Below are positions 4,415 through 31,152 of a stretch of DNA of 31,152 nt, piece after piece. This stretch comes from a virus. The position numbers were made by a program, and so were the translations under genes. The stretch spans positions 1 to 31,152 of the IMG/VR virus record IMGVR_UViG_3300032668_000096. One strand, 5' to 3'. Under the pieces are notes generated by a model that saw only the letters and a list, made by a program, of their open reading frames with translations, ran no database searches and had not been told where the DNA came from. Each line of letters starts with the position of its first letter. Within the stretch, counting starts at the first letter, position 1.

Positions 4415-4554
4415 TGCTGACTACAACCTTAAAAGTGGGTTTGAAGTCAGCAACAAGTCAGCAAAACGGTCTGCTGACTTCAAAACCCCCACTAGTGCAA
4501 GTTGCAGTCAGCAACCTGCTGACTTGCCTCCGCCGGAGGCTGCACAAGTCAGCA
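4415..4554 (+). repeat. Array of seven AGTCAGCA octamers (iteron-like)
   Basis: Seven exact copies of AGTCAGCA or its complement TGCTGACT lie in 140 bp of intergenic DNA. Forward copies start at 4445, 4456, 4506 and 4547; reverse copies start at 4415, 4472 and 4517. Spacings between starts are 30, 11, 16, 34, 11 and 30 bases, mostly near whole DNA turns. Copies 5 and 6 form a hairpin with a 3-base loop. The position immediately downstream of the PrimPol-helicase gene suggests a replication origin; a repressor operator is the alternative. Confidence 0.75.
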
Positions 4555-4569
4555 TTGCACGAGTGGGGG
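4486..4569. repeat. 84-bp dyad enclosing three octamers
   Basis: Left arm CCCCCACTAGTGCAA (4486-4500) and right arm TTGCACGAGTGGGGG (4555-4569) are inverted repeats matching at 14 of 15 positions. Near the centre is a second palindrome, GCCTCCGCCGGAGGC (4526-4540). A further inverted pair joins 4434-4452 to 4472-4493. The nested symmetry would allow cruciform or looped structures and supports a protein-binding or origin role. Confidence 0.65.
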
Positions 4570-4625
4570 AAGGGGATCGCGCTAGCAGTCTGCTAGTTGG
4601 CATAATGGTACAGGAGAAAAAACAA

Positions 4626-5252
4626 ATGGCGAAGAAACCGATAAACAAATCACCCCCCAACCCACCGGCATCATCGGCTGGTTGGATGAACCGTGGCCCC
4701 GATGTATACCTCACCGGCAGGTCGCATCTGGACGCTGTTGACGCCCTGGCGACGGAGATGGAACGGCGGTGGGGGATCGGTAGGTTGCGGCTGCTGGTTG
4801 ATGCTGACCTGCGCGAGAAGTTCGACCGGCAAAGGAAATTATTCTACGACGCCGTGCGCGAGGGCGACAGTGAGGTGCTGGAGCGCGAGTGTAAGCGTAT
4901 GTCAGCCGCATGGCGGCGTCTGGATCAGGTCGCAGCCGAAGCCGGTCACAAGCACCTCGATCCCGAGGTCTGGGAGACACACGACCCGGCTACCGGCGAA
5001 GTGATACTCATCTGCCGGGACAATATCGACGCGGCGCACGTCGTGCGATCAGGTCGAGCGTCGGTGGTCTACAGTTTGGCAGAGATCGGTCTTATCCTGT
5101 CCAAGTATGCCGAGGTCATCGACATCAAGCGCGCCTTTCCTGGCGCAACCGTCAAGCCCATGGGACGCGAACGCGCCGACCCAGTCGTCATTGTGACCGG
5201 ATCGGCGTTGCCGTGCGATGATGATGGGTTAGACGACGAAGTGCCATTTTAG
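4626..5252 (+). CDS. Conserved-looking protein downstream of candidate origin
   Basis: A 208-residue protein. The ATG at 4626 follows AGGAG with normal spacing; longer starts in the same frame would run into the octamer array. The N-terminus is Lys/Pro/Ser-rich (residues 1-20). The middle (about 45-110) is helical and charged, containing LVDADLREKFDRQRKLFYDAV. The C-terminal half contains HDPATGEVILICRDNIDAAHV and EIGLILSKYAEVIDIKRAFPG. I do not recognise the family. Its position directly after the array makes it a candidate for the protein that binds the array or assists replication, but this is inference only. Confidence 0.65.
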   Translation: MAKKPINKSPPNPPASSAGWMNRGPDVYLTGRSHLDAVDALATEMERRWGIGRLRLLVDADLREKFDRQRKLFYDAVREGDSEVLERECKRMSAAWRRLDQVAAEAGHKHLDPEVWETHDPATGEVILICRDNIDAAHVVRSGRASVVYSLAEIGLILSKYAEVIDIKRAFPGATVKPMGRERADPVVIVTGSALPCDDDGLDDEVPF

Positions 5253-7446: not shown

Positions 7447-7895
7447 TCCGCACAATACCGATCCACGTCAAACGTCTGCCGCACGCTGCCACGCTGCCGC
7501 TGCCGTCCTACGCGACCGTTGGCGCGTCCGGCGTCGATCTGCTGGCTGCTGTAGAAAGAGACATCGTGCTTTATTCGTATGACCGGCGCGTCATACCGAC
7601 CGGCATCGCCGTCGCCGTTCCGTCCGGCTACGAGTTACAAATCCGTCCTCGATCCGGGTTGGCTGCCAAGCACGGTGTCACCGTCATCAACACGCCCGGC
7701 ACTATCGACGCTGACTACCGTGGCGAGATCCACGTCGTCCTCGTCAACCATGGCGATACTCATTTCATCATCACCCGTGGCATGCGGATCGCCCAGGCGG
7801 TTCTTTGTCCTATTGTCCAAATCGACTGGCAGCCGGTCGTCGAACTGCCTGACACCGGTCGTGGCGGCGGTGGCTTCGGTAGCACGGGCGTCTGA
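7443..7895 (+). CDS. dut: dUTP diphosphatase
   Basis: A 150-residue trimeric-type dUTPase with all five motifs: ATVGASGVDLLAA (motif 1, residues about 24-36), PRSGLAAKHGVTV (motif 2, about 68-80), GTIDADYRGEIHVVLVN (motif 3, about 84-100), RIAQAVL (motif 4) and the Gly-rich RGGGGFGSTG (motif 5) at the C-terminus. It hydrolyses dUTP to dUMP and pyrophosphate, limiting uracil in phage DNA and feeding thymidylate synthesis. The length is typical of the family. It overlaps the large terminase start through TGATG. Confidence 0.93.
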   Translation: MIRTIPIHVKRLPHAATLPLPSYATVGASGVDLLAAVERDIVLYSYDRRVIPTGIAVAVPSGYELQIRPRSGLAAKHGVTVINTPGTIDADYRGEIHVVLVNHGDTHFIITRGMRIAQAVLCPIVQIDWQPVVELPDTGRGGGGFGSTGV

Positions 7896-10498
7896 TGCTC
7901 ATCCGTCTCGGCGCTGATCTGATTGACCGGGACGAGGCGCTGCTGGAGATCGAGCGGTGCGAACTGGAAGCGTCGCTATACGACTTTACCGTCGCCGCAT
8001 GGCCGACTATCGACAGCGCCCCCTTTGCTCATGGCGGCTACGCCCTACAGGCTATATGCGAGCATTTAGAGGCGTGTTGCGACGGTTATATCCCCAACCT
8101 GCTCATCAACGTGCCGCCGCGCTTTAGCAAGTCAACCATTTGCGGTGTTATGTTCCCGGCTTGGGTCTGGACGCAGCGCGCTAACACGCCGCTTGCCGGC
8201 CCAGGCGCGCAGTTCCTGCACGCTGGTTATGCAATGGCGTTGTCTTTGCAGGACTCAGTAAAATGCCGCACATTACTTCAATCTGACTGGTATCAGAAAA
8301 GATGGGGCGACCGATTCCAGTTAGTTGGCGACATGAATACTAAGACTAGATTTCAAAACAACAAGAACGGCATACGAAATACTGTGTCGGTCGGCGGCGC
8401 GACGACGGGCTTGGGCGGCAATTACCTCATCGGCGACGATCTCAACAACAGCGCCGAGGCGAACAGCGAAGCCATCATCAACAGCACCATCGAGTGGTGG
8501 GACATGGCTTGGTATAACCGCCTCAATAACTCTAAGCCGGGCCATGGCTGCCGCATCGTCATCGCCCAGCGTTTAAGCGAACTAGACATCAGCGGGCATG
8601 TTCTTGAGAAAGGCGTCGGCGATTGGCAGCACCTTTGCCTGCCGATGCGCTACGAACCAGAGCGATCCTTTCACACGACCCTGGTCCCTGCCCATTTGAC
8701 CGAAGACAACCAGCCGGTAAAGTGGTCCGACCCCCGCACCGTGCCGGGTGAACTGCTCTGGCCCGAGCGGTTCGATGAAGAGCAGGTTCGGCTGTTGGAA
8801 AAGACGCTCGGTCCCTGGGGCGCTGCCGGCCAGCTACAGCAGCGTCCTGAACCGGCGGGCGGCGGTATCATCAAGCGCGAATGGTGGCAGACCTGGATCG
8901 ACGAAGCCTTCCCGCCGTTCCACTTCATTGTCGCCAGCCTCGACACCGCCTACGGGTTGAAAGAAGAAAACGACTACAGCGCGCTGACCGTTTGGGGCGT
9001 GTTCTACGGCACCAGCGAGATACGCTCGACCCGGCACGTCAACAGATACGGCAAGCAGAGCGTCATCCAGCCGGGCGAAGTTGACGACATCGACGGTCTG
9101 CCCCGCGTCATGCTGATGACCGCCTTCCAGGACCGACTGGAATTGCACAACCTCGTCACCAAGGTCGGCGATACCTGCCGGAGGCTGAAGGTTGACCGGT
9201 TGCTGATCGAGAACAAAGCCAGCGGCATCAGTGTCGCGCAGGAAATACGCCGCATCTACGGTCATGAGGAGTTCGCCGTTCAGCTTGTCGATCCGCGTGG
9301 GCAGGACAAGCTGGCGCGGCTGTATTCGGTGCAGCACCTGTTCGCCGAGGAGATGATCTATGCGCCCGACCGTGCTTGGGCGGACATGGTTATCACGCAG
9401 GTTGGCCAGTTTCCTAAGGGGCGGAATGATGATTTGTGCCTTGTTGGTGATACTTTGATCACCATGGCAGATGGAACTACTAAACGCATAGATGAAATCA
9501 TGGTTGGAGATATGGTGGCAACCCCAGTTGGACCATGCCTAGTCTCTGCGGCTGCCATGACTGGCGTTCGCGAGGTATGGCAAATTAATTTTACGGGAGG
9601 AACTTTAACAGGAACCGCAAATCATCCTGTATGGGCCAATAATCAATGGAAACCGCTTGCTTCATTGTGTCCATCTGATACACTATGGACATTGTATCCA
9701 TTTAGCGGGAGCGGTTCATGGTTTTCCAACCTAAAGAAGGCGTTATTGTTGAAGTTGTTAAATTTAATGGGGTTAAATACCGTCGATACCCAAATTCAAC
9801 CAATCCGGCCCATAGAAGATACTTTGCCAGAGCCGGTCATAGATTGCACCGTGACGTTTGGATCTTTTTCAAAGGCCCAATTCCAAAGGGTTATCAAATC
9901 CATCACATTGATGGCAACACCGGGAATAATGACATTTCAAACCTTGAATGCATGCCATTCAAGGAACATCGCGCAAAACATGCCGATGAATACAGCGCAA
10001 GAGGTAAATCAGAAAAACGATTATCTCATCTTGCATCAATTCGTGAAAAAACTAAAGAATGGCATAGAAGTGATGAAGGCCGCGCTTGGCACAGACAAAA
10101 TGCATACACATCAATGCGAGCGGAAGGTGCGCCAAAACCTTACAGCAAAAGCCATTATACCGGGATTTGTGAGTGGTGCGGTTCGTTTTTTGAAGCAAAA
10201 AGTCCAAAAAAAACAATGTGTTCGATACAATGCGTTGACAGAAAATCAAAATTTGTGTGTGGTAAAATCCATAACGCCCACCCATACTATGCGTCCCGTT
10301 TACAACCTGACGGTTGATGGCGAACATTGTTATTTTGCTAATGGCGTCCTCACGCATAATTGCGACACTGTCAGCATGGCGTTACGACATATGCGCGAGG
10401 TCGGCCTGCTGACCCGGTCGGCGGAGCGTATGGCTGAGGTTGAAGACGCTACGAGGTTTAAGGGCAACAAGCCCCTGCAACCGCTATATCCCGTGTGA
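7895..10498 (+). CDS. Terminase large subunit precursor, interrupted by an intein
   Basis: An 867-residue precursor. The N-terminal ATPase has a Walker A-like NVPPRFSKST (residues 72-81) and acidic DD at 181-182 in NYLIGDDL. The nuclease domain has Asp350 (VASLDTAYG), Glu439 (LLIENKASG) and Asp512-Asp513 (KGRNDDL). Residues 515-822 are an intein starting at Cys515 and ending at Asn822, followed by Cys823. Splicing would give about 559 residues, the normal large-terminase length, and join NDDL to CDTVSMAL, restoring the usual third nuclease motif. The protein packages DNA into the prohead through the portal and cuts concatemers. Unspliced, the nuclease site would be broken. Confidence 0.92.
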   Translation: MLIRLGADLIDRDEALLEIERCELEASLYDFTVAAWPTIDSAPFAHGGYALQAICEHLEACCDGYIPNLLINVPPRFSKSTICGVMFPAWVWTQRANTPLAGPGAQFLHAGYAMALSLQDSVKCRTLLQSDWYQKRWGDRFQLVGDMNTKTRFQNNKNGIRNTVSVGGATTGLGGNYLIGDDLNNSAEANSEAIINSTIEWWDMAWYNRLNNSKPGHGCRIVIAQRLSELDISGHVLEKGVGDWQHLCLPMRYEPERSFHTTLVPAHLTEDNQPVKWSDPRTVPGELLWPERFDEEQVRLLEKTLGPWGAAGQLQQRPEPAGGGIIKREWWQTWIDEAFPPFHFIVASLDTAYGLKEENDYSALTVWGVFYGTSEIRSTRHVNRYGKQSVIQPGEVDDIDGLPRVMLMTAFQDRLELHNLVTKVGDTCRRLKVDRLLIENKASGISVAQEIRRIYGHEEFAVQLVDPRGQDKLARLYSVQHLFAEEMIYAPDRAWADMVITQVGQFPKGRNDDLCLVGDTLITMADGTTKRIDEIMVGDMVATPVGPCLVSAAAMTGVREVWQINFTGGTLTGTANHPVWANNQWKPLASLCPSDTLWTLYPFSGSGSWFSNLKKALLLKLLNLMGLNTVDTQIQPIRPIEDTLPEPVIDCTVTFGSFSKAQFQRVIKSITLMATPGIMTFQTLNACHSRNIAQNMPMNTAQEVNQKNDYLILHQFVKKLKNGIEVMKAALGTDKMHTHQCERKVRQNLTAKAIIPGFVSGAVRFLKQKVQKKQCVRYNALTENQNLCVVKSITPTHTMRPVYNLTVDGEHCYFANGVLTHNCDTVSMALRHMREVGLLTRSAERMAEVEDATRFKGNKPLQPLYPV
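9707..9711 (+). promoter_or_regulatory. Internal Shine-Dalgarno for the nested HNH gene
   Basis: GGGAG lies 6 bases upstream of the ATG at 9718 in the middle of the intein coding sequence. In the HNH frame a TAG stop at 9703-9705 comes just before it. Translation of the HNH protein therefore needs its own initiation here (or a frameshift in the few bases between). Confidence 0.65.
9718..10317 (+). CDS. HNH homing endonuclease nested out of frame in the intein
   Basis: A 199-residue protein in a frame offset from the terminase. It has an HNH core at about residues 58-88: PKGYQIHHIDGNTGNNDISN, LECMPFKEHRAKH. A C-terminal zinc-finger pattern follows, CEWCG with MCSIQC (Cys151, 154, 168, 172). 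The N-terminal part (about 15-50) with NPAHRRYFARAGHRLHRDVW is typical of phage HNH endonucleases. It probably cuts intein-free terminase genes so that the intein spreads by homing. The overlapping terminase frame stays open throughout the 600 bases. The HNH frame's end overlaps block F of the intein. Activity is inferred from family, not shown. Confidence 0.88.
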   Translation: MVFQPKEGVIVEVVKFNGVKYRRYPNSTNPAHRRYFARAGHRLHRDVWIFFKGPIPKGYQIHHIDGNTGNNDISNLECMPFKEHRAKHADEYSARGKSEKRLSHLASIREKTKEWHRSDEGRAWHRQNAYTSMRAEGAPKPYSKSHYTGICEWCGSFFEAKSPKKTMCSIQCVDRKSKFVCGKIHNAHPYYASRLQPDG

Positions 10499-14265: not shown

Positions 14266-14313
14266 CCAAGCCCTCGCCCTCACCCGCCGGTATGCGAGGG
14301 GATGATGATTCCT

Positions 14314-17967: not shown

Positions 17968-18050
17968 TAGGACAGAATCCTTACTTCCCCCCGGCGTGGG
18001 AAGATGAGTTTTTCCTGGTTTCCAATCGCCCCGGTGCGCGATGTCGGAAC

Positions 18051-26461: not shown

Positions 26462-27541
26462 ATGGCGATGACCCGGCTGTCGCAAGAACGAATGCAACAG
26501 GCGGTGGATTCTGTCGTCGCCAAAGGGTCAATAGTTCAAGCGGCCAAATTCCTAAAACTGCCATATGAAACCCTGCGGAGCCGGTATTATACGGCAAAGG
26601 CGATGGGTTTAACACCTTCTGGCGATTTGTCTTCCATTGAGAAACCTAACGACTGGCAAGAGGCTGAACCGGCCTTTGAATATCCCGATTTGCCATCGCC
26701 AGAGCCGACTTACGCCGAACTGAAGGCAAGGGCGGTCGAGGATTTCAACCGCACACACGCCCACCGTGAAGCGGCTAAGCTGATTAAGATCAAGGTGCGG
26801 ATAGACGGGCCTTACGGCATTATGACAATGGGCGACCCGCATGTTGATGACAATGGCACCGATTGGCCCTTGCTCGACCGGCACACCCAGCTAATCAAAC
26901 GAACGCCGGGTTTGTTCGGTGCGAATGTGGGCGACATCACGAATAACTGGATCGGACGCTTATCTAGGCTTTACGGCCAGCAGAACATGAGCCGCAGCCG
27001 GGCGCTTATCCTGGCGGAAGGTTGGCTGCGTGAGGTTCGTTGGCTGTGGATAGACCCAGGCAATCACGATCTTTGGTCCGGCGCTGATGATCCCGTGCGA
27101 TGGATCGCAAAATTGTCTGGGTTCCACTACAAGTGGCAGGGATCGAGGCTTGAACTGGTATCGCCTAATGGATCTTCTGTCATTGTCAATAGCCGCCACG
27201 ATCATCCTGGCCATAGCATGTATCACCCGACGCATGGACCGTTAAAGTCGGCGATCTGGGATAGCTATCACGATGACGTTTATACGTGCGGGCATATCCA
27301 TTCTGGTGGCTATATTCTGAAGGCGCACCCCAATGGGAAGCTATCGCATTGCTTGCGATTGTCGGCGTATAAGGTTTATGACTCGCACAAGGACGAAAAG
27401 GGGTTCCTTGATGCTCATTTGCCGGCGGCACTGTTCATCATAAATCCTTCTGCCAAAGAACAGCGAAATCGTATTATGTTCTTTCATGATGTTGAAGAAG
27501 GGGCAGCAGTGTTGACCGATATGAGAAAGAGGCTGAAATGA
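26462..27541 (+). CDS. HTH-metallophosphoesterase fusion
   Basis: A 359-residue protein. The N-terminal 50 residues form a helix-turn-helix (AVDSVVAKGSIVQAAKFLKL, then PYETLRSRYYTAKAMGL). After a linker comes a calcineurin-like phosphoesterase: GDPHVDD (about residues 124-130), GDITNN (about 157-162), GNHD (199-202), a histidine in SRHDHPGHS (about 245), and CGHIHSGG (275-282). All metal-binding motifs are present, so the enzyme should hydrolyse phosphodiesters or phosphomonoesters; substrate unknown. The HTH suggests it acts on or near DNA. It overlaps the endolysin gene by ATGA. Confidence 0.85.
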   Translation: MAMTRLSQERMQQAVDSVVAKGSIVQAAKFLKLPYETLRSRYYTAKAMGLTPSGDLSSIEKPNDWQEAEPAFEYPDLPSPEPTYAELKARAVEDFNRTHAHREAAKLIKIKVRIDGPYGIMTMGDPHVDDNGTDWPLLDRHTQLIKRTPGLFGANVGDITNNWIGRLSRLYGQQNMSRSRALILAEGWLREVRWLWIDPGNHDLWSGADDPVRWIAKLSGFHYKWQGSRLELVSPNGSSVIVNSRHDHPGHSMYHPTHGPLKSAIWDSYHDDVYTCGHIHSGGYILKAHPNGKLSHCLRLSAYKVYDSHKDEKGFLDAHLPAALFIINPSAKEQRNRIMFFHDVEEGAAVLTDMRKRLK

Positions 27542-28062
27542 GCAACGCGATTGCTACCGCGACAGCATTTATCGCTGATAGGGAAGGCTTTCGGTCTGTT
27601 CCTTACCGTGATCAGGCGGGTGTGTGGACGATAGGTTATGGGTTCACTTACATGCCTGACGGTAGCAAAGTTGGCCCAGATACCCCGTCAATGAGCCAGC
27701 AGGACGCTATGGAGCGGCTTGGGGGCATGGTTAAGCAGGTATCTGATGCTGTGTCTGTCATGGTCGCAGTGCCATTGACGGGCAACCAGATGGCTGCGTT
27801 GACCAGCTTTGCGTTTAATGTCGGCACGCATGCCCTTCGCACGTCTAACTTGCTGGCAATGGTAAATCGAAGCGATTTTGAGGATGCCGCAAAGCAGTTT
27901 GGTGCTTGGGTATATGCTGGCGGCAAGATGGATCACGGGCTTGTAAACCGCCGCAAGTTAGAGGCAGAACTGTTTATGACGCCCGATGACGTTGTTCGTA
28001 GTCCTGAGAAGACTGCCGATGACCTAAACGCAGCTGAACTTAACCACCTGGAGCAACCCTAA
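27538..28062 (+). CDS. Endolysin, GH24 lysozyme
   Basis: A 174-residue muramidase of the T4 lysozyme type. The catalytic triad spacing is clear in DREGFRSVPYRDQAGVWTIG: Glu16, Asp25 and Thr31. Residues 78-105 contain LTGNQMAALTSFAFNVG, and about 140 has LVNRRKLEAELF, both standard for the family. No signal peptide or signal-anchor is evident, so release probably needs a holin. It cleaves the peptidoglycan glycan strands at the end of infection. It overlaps upstream (ATGA) and downstream (TAATG) genes. Confidence 0.92.
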   Translation: MSNAIATATAFIADREGFRSVPYRDQAGVWTIGYGFTYMPDGSKVGPDTPSMSQQDAMERLGGMVKQVSDAVSVMVAVPLTGNQMAALTSFAFNVGTHALRTSNLLAMVNRSDFEDAAKQFGAWVYAGGKMDHGLVNRRKLEAELFMTPDDVVRSPEKTADDLNAAELNHLEQP

Positions 28063-28304
28063 TGGATCTATCTGTTATCCTGTCGCTGGTCCCAGCGCAG
28101 TATGCCGTTTACGCTGCCGCAGTCTGCGGCGTCTGCGCGGCAGTGGCTACCGTTCTGCCGCCTCCTGCTATGCCGGCAAGCGGTGCTTATCCGGTTTTCT
28201 ACCATATCGTTAACTTCTTTGCCGCGAACGTGGGCAAGGCGAAGAACGCTAATGCGCCGGTCATTCCGGCTATCCCGACCCCGAACAATGGAGCGAATAC
28301 ATGA
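28062..28304 (+). CDS. Small membrane protein, candidate holin
   Basis: An 80-residue protein with one or two hydrophobic segments: VILSLVPAQYAVYAAAVCGV to about residue 32 and a weaker PVFYHIVNFFAANVG (about 44-58). The C-terminus is Pro/Asn-rich. It overlaps the endolysin stop (TAATG) and the lipoprotein start (ATGA), so it belongs to the lysis cassette. A holin-like role is inferred from position and hydrophobicity only. Confidence 0.6.
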   Translation: MDLSVILSLVPAQYAVYAAAVCGVCAAVATVLPPPAMPASGAYPVFYHIVNFFAANVGKAKNANAPVIPAIPTPNNGANT

Positions 28305-28642
28305 TCCGCCGCATTGCTTTAGTCGGCACCGTCCTGGCGCTGGCGGCTTGCTCAAACACGCAGACGGCAACCTCGATAGCAGCCCTAGAAAGCGCGTTGA
28401 CGGCTGCTGATGATGCTGCCCTGGGGTATCTTCAGTTACCGGTCTGCACCGGCTCCAACGGGCCTGTATGCGGTAATGCGACCGTGCGGGGCCAGATCAA
28501 AGAGGCTGCTGCTGTTGCTTACGCTGCCATCAAGGCCGCTGAAAAGGCCAATGCTGCTGGGCAGCCTGTTGACCTGACCGTTGCCACGGCTTCCTTGACT
28601 GCGTTCCAGGCGGTTGTCGCATCTGCCACGAAAGGATTGTAA
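28301..28642 (+). CDS. Lipoprotein of the lysis region
   Basis: A 113-residue protein with a lipoprotein signal peptide: MIRRIALVGTVLALAAC, lipobox LAAC with Cys17. The mature part is Ala-rich and helical (SIAALESALTAADDAALGYL, then EAAAVAYAAIKAAEKANAAG) with a disulphide-capable pair in PVCTGSNGPVC. The position after endolysin and candidate holin suits an outer-membrane lysis lipoprotein (o-spanin-like), but it is longer than Rz1 and not Pro-rich, so that is only one possibility. Confidence 0.68.
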   Translation: MIRRIALVGTVLALAACSNTQTATSIAALESALTAADDAALGYLQLPVCTGSNGPVCGNATVRGQIKEAAAVAYAAIKAAEKANAAGQPVDLTVATASLTAFQAVVASATKGL

Positions 28643-28643
28643 T

Positions 28644-28832
28644 ATGCCGATTACCACGATTGTCGCGCTGATCCAGGCGCTGATGCAATTTGCCCCGCAG
28701 GTGCCAGAATTGATTACGGCGGCTGAAACGGCGATTAGTTTGCTGAAAAGCGGCACCGCGCCGACCGCTGCCCAACAGGCACAGATCGACGCGGCGCTTG
28801 ATGCGGCGAACGCTGCGGTGCAGAACGCTTAG
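28644..28832 (+). CDS. Small amphipathic hypothetical protein
   Basis: A 62-residue protein, MPITTIVALIQALMQFAPQV then PELITAAETAISLLKSGTAP and a C-terminal AQIDAALDAANAAVQNA. ATG 28644 follows AAAGGA. Its stop overlaps by 4 bases the stop of the minus-strand GcrA gene (convergent). Similar small helical proteins end many phage lysis operons. Function unknown. Confidence 0.58.
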   Translation: MPITTIVALIQALMQFAPQVPELITAAETAISLLKSGTAPTAAQQAQIDAALDAANAAVQNA

Positions 28833-29347
28833 GCGACTTCCTCGCACCATGTGGGGCGTTGGAACACGACCTTGTAGTGTTCCTCGCACCATGATTTGCC
28901 CTGTATGCTGGGCTTCTTGCACCAGTAAATTTCCTTCGCCCTAGGGCTGTTGTAAATCCATTGGCATGTGCGTTTCGTCGATAGCTTCGGCGGATCTTTG
29001 GGGCGCAGTTCTGGTTGTTGATTGGGCGGCGTAAACTGCATGACGTTGTCATTGTCGCTGGGTAGCGGCGGCAGTGTTTTTGCGTCGCTAGGGAGCGGCG
29101 GCAGCGTTTTCGCCCATTCAGGCAGGACGACGGGCTTAACATTATCCGGCTTTTTGCCCTGTTTAATAGGGCTGGCGCGTGGTGTTAAGTGTAAACGGTG
29201 CGCCTTCCCAATAACCGAATTTTTGCTGATTTTGAGTATGTTCGCTATTTGCCGAGTTGTAAGGCCCAAGTTCCAAAGTTCCTTTAGCTTGTTGATTTGA
29301 TCGACCGCCCATGGCGCGTTGGTCGGTTTTTTATTCGTTATTTTCAT
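28829..29347 (-). CDS. gcrA: GcrA-family cell-cycle regulator homologue
   Basis: A 172-residue protein. The N-terminal domain (about residues 12-58) is a GcrA-like helix-turn-helix: PWAVDQINKLKELWNLGLTT, then RQIANILKISKNSVIGKAHR and LHLTPR. A linker carries a 10-residue tandem repeat (AKTLPPLPSD twice). The C-terminal part contains RTCQWIYNS, WCKKPSIQGKSWCEEHYK and YKVVFQRPTW, the Cys-containing pattern (CxW...C...G..C..H) of GcrA. In Alphaproteobacteria GcrA binds sigma70 RNA polymerase and activates promoters carrying GANTC methylation sites. The phage copy may redirect host transcription. Its start overlaps the upstream membrane protein by 17 bases. Confidence 0.85.
   Translation of the reverse strand: MKITNKKPTNAPWAVDQINKLKELWNLGLTTRQIANILKISKNSVIGKAHRLHLTPRASPIKQGKKPDNVKPVVLPEWAKTLPPLPSDAKTLPPLPSDNDNVMQFTPPNQQPELRPKDPPKLSTKRTCQWIYNSPRAKEIYWCKKPSIQGKSWCEEHYKVVFQRPTWCEEVA
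29054..29113 (-). repeat. 30-bp tandem duplication within gcrA linker
   Basis: Two adjacent 30-base units (29054-29083 and 29084-29113) differ at only four positions, all silent: both encode AKTLPPLPSD. This is a recent in-frame duplication in a Pro-rich linker. Confidence 0.85.
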
Positions 29348-29471
29348 CCGAGATTACCATCCAAAACAGTGTTAGCAGTGTCATTAGGATCAAGGCGGTT
29401 GTGGTTGATGCTTGGGCATATACCATGATCCAGACCATGAAGCAGATTGCCAGAAGCGTGGCAACCATCAT
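29331..29471 (-). CDS. Small membrane protein upstream of gcrA
   Basis: A 46-residue hydrophobic protein, MMVATLLAICFMVWIMVYAQ then ASTTTALILMTLLTLFWMVI and SDENNE. Two membrane helices are likely (residues 3-19 and 24-40). The start overlaps the RlpA-like stop (ATGA) and its end overlaps the gcrA start by 17 bases, so it is part of the minus-strand operon. No family recognised. Confidence 0.55.
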   Translation of the reverse strand: MMVATLLAICFMVWIMVYAQASTTTALILMTLLTLFWMVISDENNE

Positions 29472-29800
29472 CGCAGCACCTGCACTATGACATGTGCAAC
29501 CCCGCACCTACCAATCCCCAGCCGCTCACCCGCTGCCTGCGATAGGTCAATAACCCTGCCCCTTTTCCACGGCCCACGGTCGTTGATCCTGACGATAACG
29601 TGCCGATGGTCGTCCATCCGGCTGACTAAGACGCGGGTGCCGAATGGCAGAGTGCGGCTGGCTGCTGTCAGGCCGTGCCGGTCATACCGTTCGCCGCTGG
29701 CCGTGACGTGGCCTTGGCTATACCAAGACGCTGTGCCGGTGGCGTCGGCCAGGGCGGGCGTGCTGGCGAGTAATAGGGCGGCAAGGGCGAGGCGGGTCAT
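29468..29800 (-). CDS. RlpA-like secreted protein (double-psi beta barrel)
   Basis: A 110-residue protein with a Sec signal peptide (MTRLALAALLLASTPALADA, cleavage about residue 18-20) and a mature RlpA-type domain: GTASWYSQGHVTASGERYDR, LTAASRTLPFGTRVLV and VIVRINDRGPWKRGRVIDLS with AAGERLGI. These are the hallmarks of the RlpA double-psi beta-barrel; in Pseudomonas RlpA is a lytic transglycosylase that degrades denuded glycan strands. The SPOR domain found in full-length RlpA is absent. A phage copy could assist cell wall degradation or alter the host surface. It overlaps its neighbours by ATGA on both sides. Confidence 0.85.
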   Translation of the reverse strand: MTRLALAALLLASTPALADATGTASWYSQGHVTASGERYDRHGLTAASRTLPFGTRVLVSRMDDHRHVIVRINDRGPWKRGRVIDLSQAAGERLGIGRCGVAHVIVQVLR

Positions 29801-30069
29801 CGGAAGTCATCCAAAGAAATAGGCACCCAGGCTGCGGGCAAAAACTCAACTTCCACCTTCTCTCCAGATAAATTCTCTATATGATGAAGAAAGATTTTTT
29901 GCGTGTGACATTGAGGGCTACCCAATCCCTTGTCGCCCTTCATCCAATAAAACGCCAACCCCTTGTCGGGATGGACCAGCCAGTAGTTGTCGGTTATCAG
30001 CCGATAAAACCCGCCTTTTGTTGGTGTTAGGGCTTTTTCTTTCGGGAGGAATTTGTATTCTCCTCTCAT
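29797..30069 (-). CDS. Hypothetical protein of the accessory operon
   Basis: A 90-residue protein, MRGEYKFLPKEKALTPTKGG at the start, FYRLITDNYWLVHPDKGLAF in the middle and VEVEFLPAAWVPISLDDFR at the end. The ATG at 30069 follows AGGAGGCACCCGA; an in-frame start at 30147 would overlap the upstream gene and lacks such a signal. No family recognised. Overlaps the RlpA-like gene by ATGA. Confidence 0.58.
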   Translation of the reverse strand: MRGEYKFLPKEKALTPTKGGFYRLITDNYWLVHPDKGLAFYWMKGDKGLGSPQCHTQKIFLHHIENLSGEKVEVEFLPAAWVPISLDDFR

Positions 30070-30299
30070 TCGGGTGCCTCCTGTTTTGCTGCGGCGAGCG
30101 GCGAATAATCCTGTATGCTGACCCGCACATGATCTGCACGTCCCCAAACAGCCGCCACCTGCCCTTCTTCAGATACGTATATAACAAAGTTGCGCTGTTG
30201 ATCGCGCCGAGGATCGTCGGCGTAATCTGTGACAAAGTTATGCGCTATTTTGGCTATACGATACGCTGAATGAAGCGGGCCTGTGTAGGTAATTTTCAT
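30066..30299 (-). CDS. Hypothetical protein of the accessory operon
   Basis: A 77-residue protein, MKITYTGPLHSAYRIAKIAH, then NFVIYVSEEGQVAAVWGRAD and a C-terminal AAAKQEAPE. The last codons overlap the next gene's Shine-Dalgarno and start (GAGGCACCCGAATGA). The start is preceded by GGGGAGGCACCCGA. Small alpha/beta protein of unknown function. Confidence 0.58.
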   Translation of the reverse strand: MKITYTGPLHSAYRIAKIAHNFVTDYADDPRRDQQRNFVIYVSEEGQVAAVWGRADHVRVSIQDYSPLAAAKQEAPE

Positions 30300-30511
30300 T
30301 CGGGTGCCTCCCCCAACGCCATGCGCGCTTCACGGCCCAAGTCCTCTTTGCTTGTGCCAGAGTTTTGCGATCCAAGGCTAATTAGTTGGAGCGTATGCCG
30401 CAACCGCCTCATGCGGCGTGCTGCATTTTCCACATGCGTTGCGTGTTGCGGTAAATCTAATTTACGCAACTTATCAGCCGCATCTTCAAGCCAATAATCT
30501 TTTTCGGTCAT
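30296..30511 (-). CDS. Helical hypothetical protein of the accessory operon
   Basis: A 71-residue basic helical protein, MTEKDYWLEDAADKLRKLDL, then NAARRMRRLRHTLQLISLGS and a C-terminal ARMALGEAPE. Its end doubles as the ribosome-binding site of the next gene. No family recognised. Confidence 0.58.
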   Translation of the reverse strand: MTEKDYWLEDAADKLRKLDLPQHATHVENAARRMRRLRHTLQLISLGSQNSGTSKEDLGREARMALGEAPE

Positions 30512-30837
30512 TCGGGTGTTCCCTGTTTATACGCCAACACTGCCTGATCAATGCTGGCTCGGTAATCAACCATCATCTGATCAAACATTTTGTCTGATGC
30601 CACAGTCTTTTTGATTGCTTTGCCGCCACGCACAAGCAAGGAAATTGCGGCAGCAAGCGAAGCCACAACGCCCATTAGTGCGTCTTGCAAATTGGCGTTT
30701 TGTGCTTGCAACCGTTTGATCTCCGCGACCGGTGCGCAAGCACCCAGGTCCGGCCCGCACGCGCATCGGCGGCGCTCAAGCATGGCTTCCATCATGAGAT
30801 CGAAGTCCCGTTCTTCCAGGTCATGCGGGCTGGTCAT
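30508..30837 (-). CDS. Hypothetical coiled-coil protein with Cys cluster
   Basis: A 109-residue protein, with an acidic start (MTSPHDLEERDFDLMMEAML), a Cys-rich turn (RRCACGPDLGACAP), a coiled-coil segment (EIKRLQAQNANLQDALMG), a mildly hydrophobic VVASLAAAISLLVRGG (about 60-75) and a helical tail ending YKQGTPE. The three cysteines within ten residues could bind metal. The start may be ATG 30837 or GTG 30840. It overlaps both neighbours. No family recognised. Confidence 0.55.
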   Translation of the reverse strand: MTSPHDLEERDFDLMMEAMLERRRCACGPDLGACAPVAEIKRLQAQNANLQDALMGVVASLAAAISLLVRGGKAIKKTVASDKMFDQMMVDYRASIDQAVLAYKQGTPE

Positions 30838-31139
30838 CACACCAGCCCCCAGTCATCCGCCACCGGGATACTGAAAACCTCAGAACCGGCAGGAACATCG
30901 AGGTCCAGGATGGGCCGGATGTCGGCGTTGCTGCCAACCGGATCTTTCACGACTGCCGGGAAGCCGACGCTTTCCCAGCGGAACAGATTGACCACGCGGG
31001 TCATGTATATTCGGCCATCCTTGCGGGTAACGTCTCCCGCGAAAATCCAGCCGCGATCCAGGACCACAACAGCCCGTGTGCCGGTGGTGCGTTTGGTAGG
31101 TGCGTATTCCACGCCGTTGATTGTGATGATGTCGCTCAT
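30837..31139 (-). CDS. Beta-rich hypothetical protein, first visible gene of the accessory operon
   Basis: A 100-residue protein, MSDIITINGVEYAPTKRTTG then RAVVVLDRGWIFAGDVTRKD, RIYMTRVVNLFRWESVGFPA and a C-terminal VFSIPVADDWGLV. The start is preceded by TAGGAG with an A-run before ATG. The beta-strand pattern suggests a small barrel or SH3-like fold. Function unknown; its promoter would lie beyond 31152. Confidence 0.58.
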   Translation of the reverse strand: MSDIITINGVEYAPTKRTTGTRAVVVLDRGWIFAGDVTRKDGRIYMTRVVNLFRWESVGFPAVVKDPVGSNADIRPILDLDVPAGSEVFSIPVADDWGLV

Positions 31140-31152
31140 TTTTTTTCTCCTA

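Follow-up and report, generated by a model that had tools for sequence, protein, structure and literature searches.

A phage-encoded member of the GcrA family with a conserved DNA-binding domain and an altered sigma-interacting domain

The window, meaning the whole stretch of DNA that was analysed, is the IMG/VR virus record IMGVR_UViG_3300032668_000096 (31,152 nt). Its genes include matches to an Sf6-type small terminase, a terminase large subunit, an SU10-type portal, a major head protein, an endolysin, a primase/helicase, and GapR. Structural and lysis genes occupy the plus strand as far as 28832; all open reading frames (ORFs) judged to be genes between 28829 and the right end lie on the minus strand. 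The gcrA-like gene, its parts, and the other genes needed here are as follows.

28829-29347, minus strand: gcrA-like gene, 172 aa, intact ORF starting with ATG; PF07750 at 75 bits, PDB 7ye1 at E=2.9e-13
29186-29317, minus strand: N-terminal DNA-binding helix-turn-helix (HTH) domain, residues 11-54; matches 5yiu and 5yiv
28976-29185, minus strand: linker, approximately residues 55-124; variable in the alignment, low pLDDT at residues 103-116
29054-29113, minus strand: linker repeat, residues 79-98; two tandem copies of the 10-residue unit AKTLPPLPSD
28856-28975, minus strand: C-terminal domain of the sigma-interacting type, residues 125-164; matches 5yix_B at 1.2 Å
29468-31139, minus strand: opposite-strand cassette adjoining gcrA, from the ORF list; a DPBB_1 gene and small ORFs without assigned function
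29468-29800, minus strand: DPBB_1 lytic-transglycosylase-like gene; PF03330 at 85 bits
5254-5607, plus strand: GapR-like gene; PF10073 at 79.8 bits, cut-off 22.6

No end repeat of the tested lengths was seen in the window. Its left part matches contig G005 at 99.7%, the far part of G005 matches L286 at 99.8%, a right-end motif of the window is common to L286 and L287, and the last 1.37 kb match L287 at 99.4%. G005 and L286 apparently derive from the same phage as the window, and the overlaps among these contigs suggest a circular map of about 48-49 kb. In L286 to L288, the minus-strand ORFs continue for approximately 1 kb and are followed by long plus-strand ORFs. The window's last minus-strand ORF, at 30837-31139, has its counterpart at L287 (reverse) 4532-4834; L287 holds it as two tandem copies that are 96-100% similar, followed by glycine/tyrosine-rich repeat ORFs. 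The left part of L287 is unlike the window phage, has undefined bases near the junction, and encodes proteins that we take to be ribonucleotide-reductase-like and ThyX-like; L287 is possibly a scaffold join of two phages. Another feature of this phage lies in the terminase large subunit gene (7895-10498), where an intein-like insert with Vint and Intein_splicing matches extends from approximately residue 515 to 822. The insert is found in L002 and L003 and is missing from L004 and G005, whose portal is identical to that of the window. On these sequences, it is a presence/absence polymorphism within one phage species.

The first-pass annotation had placed a GcrA homologue at 28829-29347 and left its strand unstated. 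The gene lies on the minus strand, and the plus-strand reading of the same interval is interrupted by stops. The comparison with PF07750 (GcrA) that the annotation had proposed gave a significant match over both domains (E=1.1e-20, 75 bits versus a cut-off of 26.9), aligning residues 13-164 to profile positions 3-147 of 155; an independent run scored 74.1 bits. The best PDB sequence match is Caulobacter crescentus GcrA (7ye1_G, E=2.9e-13), again over both domains. PHROGs matches were weak, with a best score of 29 bits.

The predicted structure leads to the same family. An AlphaFold2 model, for which 56 aligned sequences were used, reaches a mean pLDDT of 78.7 and has a poor middle part, with values below 50 at residues 103-116 with one gap. 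The top four PDB chains in Foldseek are all GcrA (7ye1_G, 5yiu at 0.9 Å, 5yix_B at 1.2 Å, and 7ye2_G), with E-values of which the best is 2.3e-3 and none falls below 0.001. VIA-align 2 places 5yiu (Z 7.9) and 5yiv_A (Z 7.7, 0.8 Å over 44 residues) first, followed at Z 7.0 by unrelated HTH-like domains, which fill the list; the DNA-binding fold alone would therefore be unspecific. The C-terminal domain of the model superimposes on 5yix_B at 1.2 Å over 38 columns. The HTH noted in the first-pass annotation is borne out by its conserved residues and by the fold match to 5yiu and 5yiv, and the Cys-rich C-terminus corresponds to C128, C143, C154, and H157, which are invariant in relatives. On sequence and predicted fold, the gene product is assigned to the GcrA family as a phage member.

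This member has no near neighbour in the collections searched. A tblastn search of window GcrA against 50,697 phage records gave 0 matches at E≤0.01. Of 14 IMG/VR stretches picked out by peptide patterns for close relatives, none was confirmed, and a 33-mer of the gene likewise had no exact match. In a tree of 159 rows and 97 columns, window GcrA sits on an end branch of 1.19 and belongs to no starred set, a placement that points to no single bacterial lineage as a recent source of the gene.

The two domains of the protein differ in how well they have been kept. The comparison drew on bacterial contigs, in which at least 586 of 591 pattern stretches were confirmed as GcrA-like and the best 80 kept, on viral contigs of IMG/VR (257 of 326 confirmed, best 80 kept), and on GcrA-like ORFs from named phages and plasmid records; 33 named phage records have a GcrA match, beside the 257 IMG/VR stretches. 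Eight repeat retrievals were left out, and removal of exact duplicates took the set from 183 to 171 proteins, which were placed in one profile alignment. In this alignment 170 rows were scored, one row being without the domain, and the count also left out rows in which two or more scored positions of either domain were missing. Positions with at least 95% agreement among the bacterial rows served as reference; there are 26 of them, of which the DNA-binding domain holds 14 and the sigma domain 12.

Window GcrA keeps 13 of the 14 near-invariant residues of the DNA-binding domain, the sole change being A to S44. In the sigma domain it keeps six of 12, namely C128, W130, P135, C143, C154, and H157, and the replacements are P to I131, G to N133, F to I140, F to W142, Y to W153, and A to V161. 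The bacterial sigma-domain motif W-P-x-G-x-P, F-x-F, Y is thus not matched. Since other phage rows also lack parts of it (the P is kept in 59 of 78 rows and the G in 62 of 77), the motif does not define the family, and its loss bears on function, not on GcrA membership. All 12 sigma positions are kept in 83 of the 86 bacterial rows, and eight of 75 phage rows, the window among them, keep six or fewer. What is particular to window GcrA, judged from its residues, is a preserved DNA-binding half joined to a strongly altered polymerase-binding half. The window's own counts lie outside the selection of rows, while the reference positions are subject to it. The idea that phages generally have a relaxed sigma domain was also considered and set aside. 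The mean numbers of kept positions (12.63 of 14 and 9.53 of 12 in 75 phage rows, 13.94 and 11.93 in 86 bacterial rows) are biased, because the scans picked their rows by a motif of the DNA-binding domain and the bacterial rows are the window's best matches.

With six sigma-domain residues replaced, sigma binding may be altered or lost. The absence of residues that contact sigma70, which the first-pass annotation had named as a point against its own proposal, may therefore apply in part. Because the sigma domain is altered, the strongest rival to an activating role is one in which the phage protein opposes host GcrA. The DNA-binding domain would sit on the methylated promoters of the host, and the diverged C-terminal domain would bind sigma poorly or in another way; as an outcome host GcrA would be displaced and host cell-cycle transcription shut down, not boosted. 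We regard this mechanism and its outcome as unlikely. The unequal conservation of the two domains (13/14 versus 6/12) speaks for it, as do proteins of other phages (MD18, Kikimora) that consist of the DNA-binding half only. Against it, window GcrA retains the C/C/C/H residues, W130, and P135, and its C-terminal domain still models on 5yix_B at 1.2 Å, so that the C-terminal fold seems to be under selection, and the changes of F to W142 and of Y to W153 retain an aromatic residue.

Between the two domains, the linker repeat described in the first-pass annotation is present as two tandem units that share 26 of 30 bases, which makes a local duplication its likely origin. The linker varies in both length and sequence among aligned GcrA members. 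By one repeat test, repeats occur in three of 72 phage linkers, including that of the window, and in two of 82 bacterial linkers; the feature is uncommon, not unique, and gives no reason to assume a function beyond spacing.

The distribution of GANTC indicates where such a protein might act. The window contains 24 GANTC sites, where Markov models of order 1, 2, and 3 predict 110.9, 84.2, and 55.2. It is the most depleted of the 16 palindromes of the form XYNY'X' (24 versus about 85 expected, ratio 0.28); GGNCC (0.60) and CTNAG (0.64) come next. The ratio is 0.46 over 63 bacterial gcrA contigs or loci of at least 9 kb, 0.37 over 54 viral gcrA contigs, and 0.51 over 34 portal-related phage contigs. 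A low frequency in both the window and the bacterial gcrA contigs fits a host that methylates GANTC. Depletion is also seen in portal relatives where a gcrA match was not found, and therefore supports the type of host rather than the function of the gene; in some portal relatives (L031, L032, L036, and L073, ratios 0.82-0.87) there is little deficit. By these counts, what the deficit marks is the host environment, not the carriage of gcrA. Two of the 24 sites lie outside genes.

14307-14311, no strand: intergenic GANTC site, 80 bp upstream of ORF 14387
17975-17979, no strand: intergenic GANTC site, 99 bp upstream of ORF 18074

These two sites are what favours a second alternative, in which the protein would guide host polymerase to methylated GANTC sites within promoters of the phage itself and so time phage transcription. 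We consider it quite unlikely. Two gene-free sites of 24 is the number expected by chance (P=0.32), their place is not kept upstream of orthologous genes, a consensus-type plus-strand promoter was found at neither the 14307 nor the 17975 site, and none of the 24 sites falls in 27385-31152, the region of gcrA and its neighbours. GANTC-controlled phage promoters are hence unsupported. The count near phage promoters that the first-pass annotation had recommended shows sites that are strongly depleted and not concentrated at promoters. Sparse sites without promoter enrichment argue against a dense phage regulon and are a better fit to host targets.

The remaining alternative, that gcrA is a recently gained or decaying accessory gene of little effect, is very unlikely: its position between the lysis and tail genes, on the strand opposite to theirs, and the lack of a gcrA match in most portal relatives would agree with it (five of 81 records, namely G026, G044, G045, G051, and G073, match at E≤0.001 and three of 81 over the cut-off, most records being fragments, so that absences count little), but the ORF is intact, the DNA-binding domain retains 13 of 14 invariants, the C/C/C/H set is complete, and gcrA recurs in many phages.

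The first-pass annotation had also coupled GcrA with GapR as two host-type factors. Both are indeed present, GapR being supported by its PF10073 match; their pairing, on the other hand, is nothing special. GapR scores over the cut-off in eight of 12 further phage records related by portal, the majority lacking a gcrA match, and in eight of 34 gcrA-bearing viral records. A PF01555 methylase, over the cut-off in eight of the same 34 records, has no match in the window or in the overlapping contigs G005 and G081; methylation would thus be that of the host. The GANTC deficit and GapR fit a CcrM-bearing alphaproteobacterial host. The portal protein has 18 matches in named phage records, among them Caulobacter, Roseobacter, and Pelagibacter phages as well as cyanophages. 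The host is probably an alphaproteobacterium.

GcrA is a cell-cycle transcription activator that couples DNA methylation to transcription in Alphaproteobacteria. The reading that we prefer, and to which we give about an even chance, is that window GcrA is likewise a sigma70 co-factor guided by m6A, with host promoters as its main targets. It starts from features that can be read directly, namely the family, the domain architecture, the fold match, the retention of DNA-binding residues, and a shortage of GANTC resembling that of bacterial gcrA contigs. Binding to methyl-GANTC and to sigma70, action on host targets, the time of expression, and an advantage for the phage are taken over by analogy from the family. 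The phage protein would be made during infection, and its N-terminal HTH would bind GANTC sites methylated by host CcrM. The C-terminal C/C/C/H domain would dock on region 2 of the host principal sigma factor and favour open-complex formation, as in C. crescentus GcrA. Host RNA polymerase would be biased to methylated promoters of the replication and division phases, which would make replication and division functions available to the phage. That phage GcrA reprogrammes host cell-cycle transcription, as the first-pass annotation suggested, may thus reasonably be supposed.

GcrA-like proteins with other arrangements of the two domains occur in several phages. The DNA-binding half stands by itself in L114 (Phaeobacter phage MD18, 2501-2875), L119 (Brevundimonas phage Kikimora, 1357-1878), and L253, and in L118 (Brevundimonas phage Bajun, 988-1695) the DNA-binding domain is duplicated before a single C-terminal domain. 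The C-terminal half alone, without the HTH, is found in L088 (G073:33406-33540) and L089 (G051:37495-37686), proteins of about 75-80 aa from their ATG that are carried by portal-related phages; these could possibly be sigma70 decoys, or co-factors without DNA aiming. A broader and decidedly tentative idea is that phages took GcrA apart, keeping its DNA-binding half and rebuilding the sigma-binding half (window), dropping it (MD18, Kikimora), or using it alone (G051, G073). If so, phages would possess a range of sigma modulators guided by methylation, and some of these would work against host GcrA rather than imitate it. The phage copies suggest that the methylation-transcription switch is worth seizing, and a diverged copy with an intact DNA-reading half would make it testable whether phages boost or block that switch. 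The feature worth following is this split conservation of domains, together with the half-GcrA proteins of other phages.

A comparison with known GcrA proteins places the window copy more closely. GcrA is described in the available text of PMC7403470 as a sigma2-binding, m6A-guided activator composed of a DNA-binding part (residues 1-45), an unstructured linker (46-107), and a sigma-interacting part (108-173), and window GcrA has its parts in the same order. It shares with C. crescentus GcrA (7ye1, 7ye2, 5yiu, 5yiv, and 5yix) the two domains, the HTH residues, the C/C/C/H residues, and the linker. It differs in being phage-borne, in an identity of about 31%, and in carrying I131, N133, I140, W142, W153, and V161 where the C-terminal motif of bacterial GcrA has P, G, F, F, Y, and A.

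Among phages, GcrA homologues (pfam07750) were reported in 2012 in five of six phiCbK-like phages, with the proposal, in the accessible part of that paper, that phage GcrA up-regulates host replication genes (PMC3556154). Window GcrA resembles phiCbK gp222 and the other phiCbK-like homologues in being a full-length phage-encoded protein, but it has lost the WPYGDP motif that the GcrA of these large Caulobacter phages keeps. G026, G044, and G045 are phage kin of the window by portal protein. The GcrA of G026 and of G045 has the same architecture as that of the window, and that of G044 is cut by the contig end. The G045 protein is 26% identical to window GcrA over the aligned part and, unlike in the window, the three genes are located near the terminase and portal genes; they and the window gene were probably acquired separately.

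GcrA is also reported in Agrobacterium phage Atu_ph08 (PMC6630229), as two GcrA-like ORFs in a brucellaphage (PMC11836647), in a coral-associated phage linked to Rhizobiales (PMC11309003), and among the listed genes of Sinorhizobium meliloti prophages (PMC12429752); what these share with the window is a reported GcrA gene in a phage or prophage. A prophage-like operon of Brevundimonas is expressed in a GcrA-dependent manner (PMC7987155, in its accessible text), which indicates that phage-type genes can be GcrA targets. The finding, in the portion of PMC9437464 at hand, that GcrA sites in phage genomes lack positional asymmetry agrees with the GANTC result in the window. The accessible text of the cited phage-GcrA literature reports no functional test of any phage GcrA. 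Phage GcrA is not new, having been published since 2012, and is common; the window adds another phage group to those that carry it.
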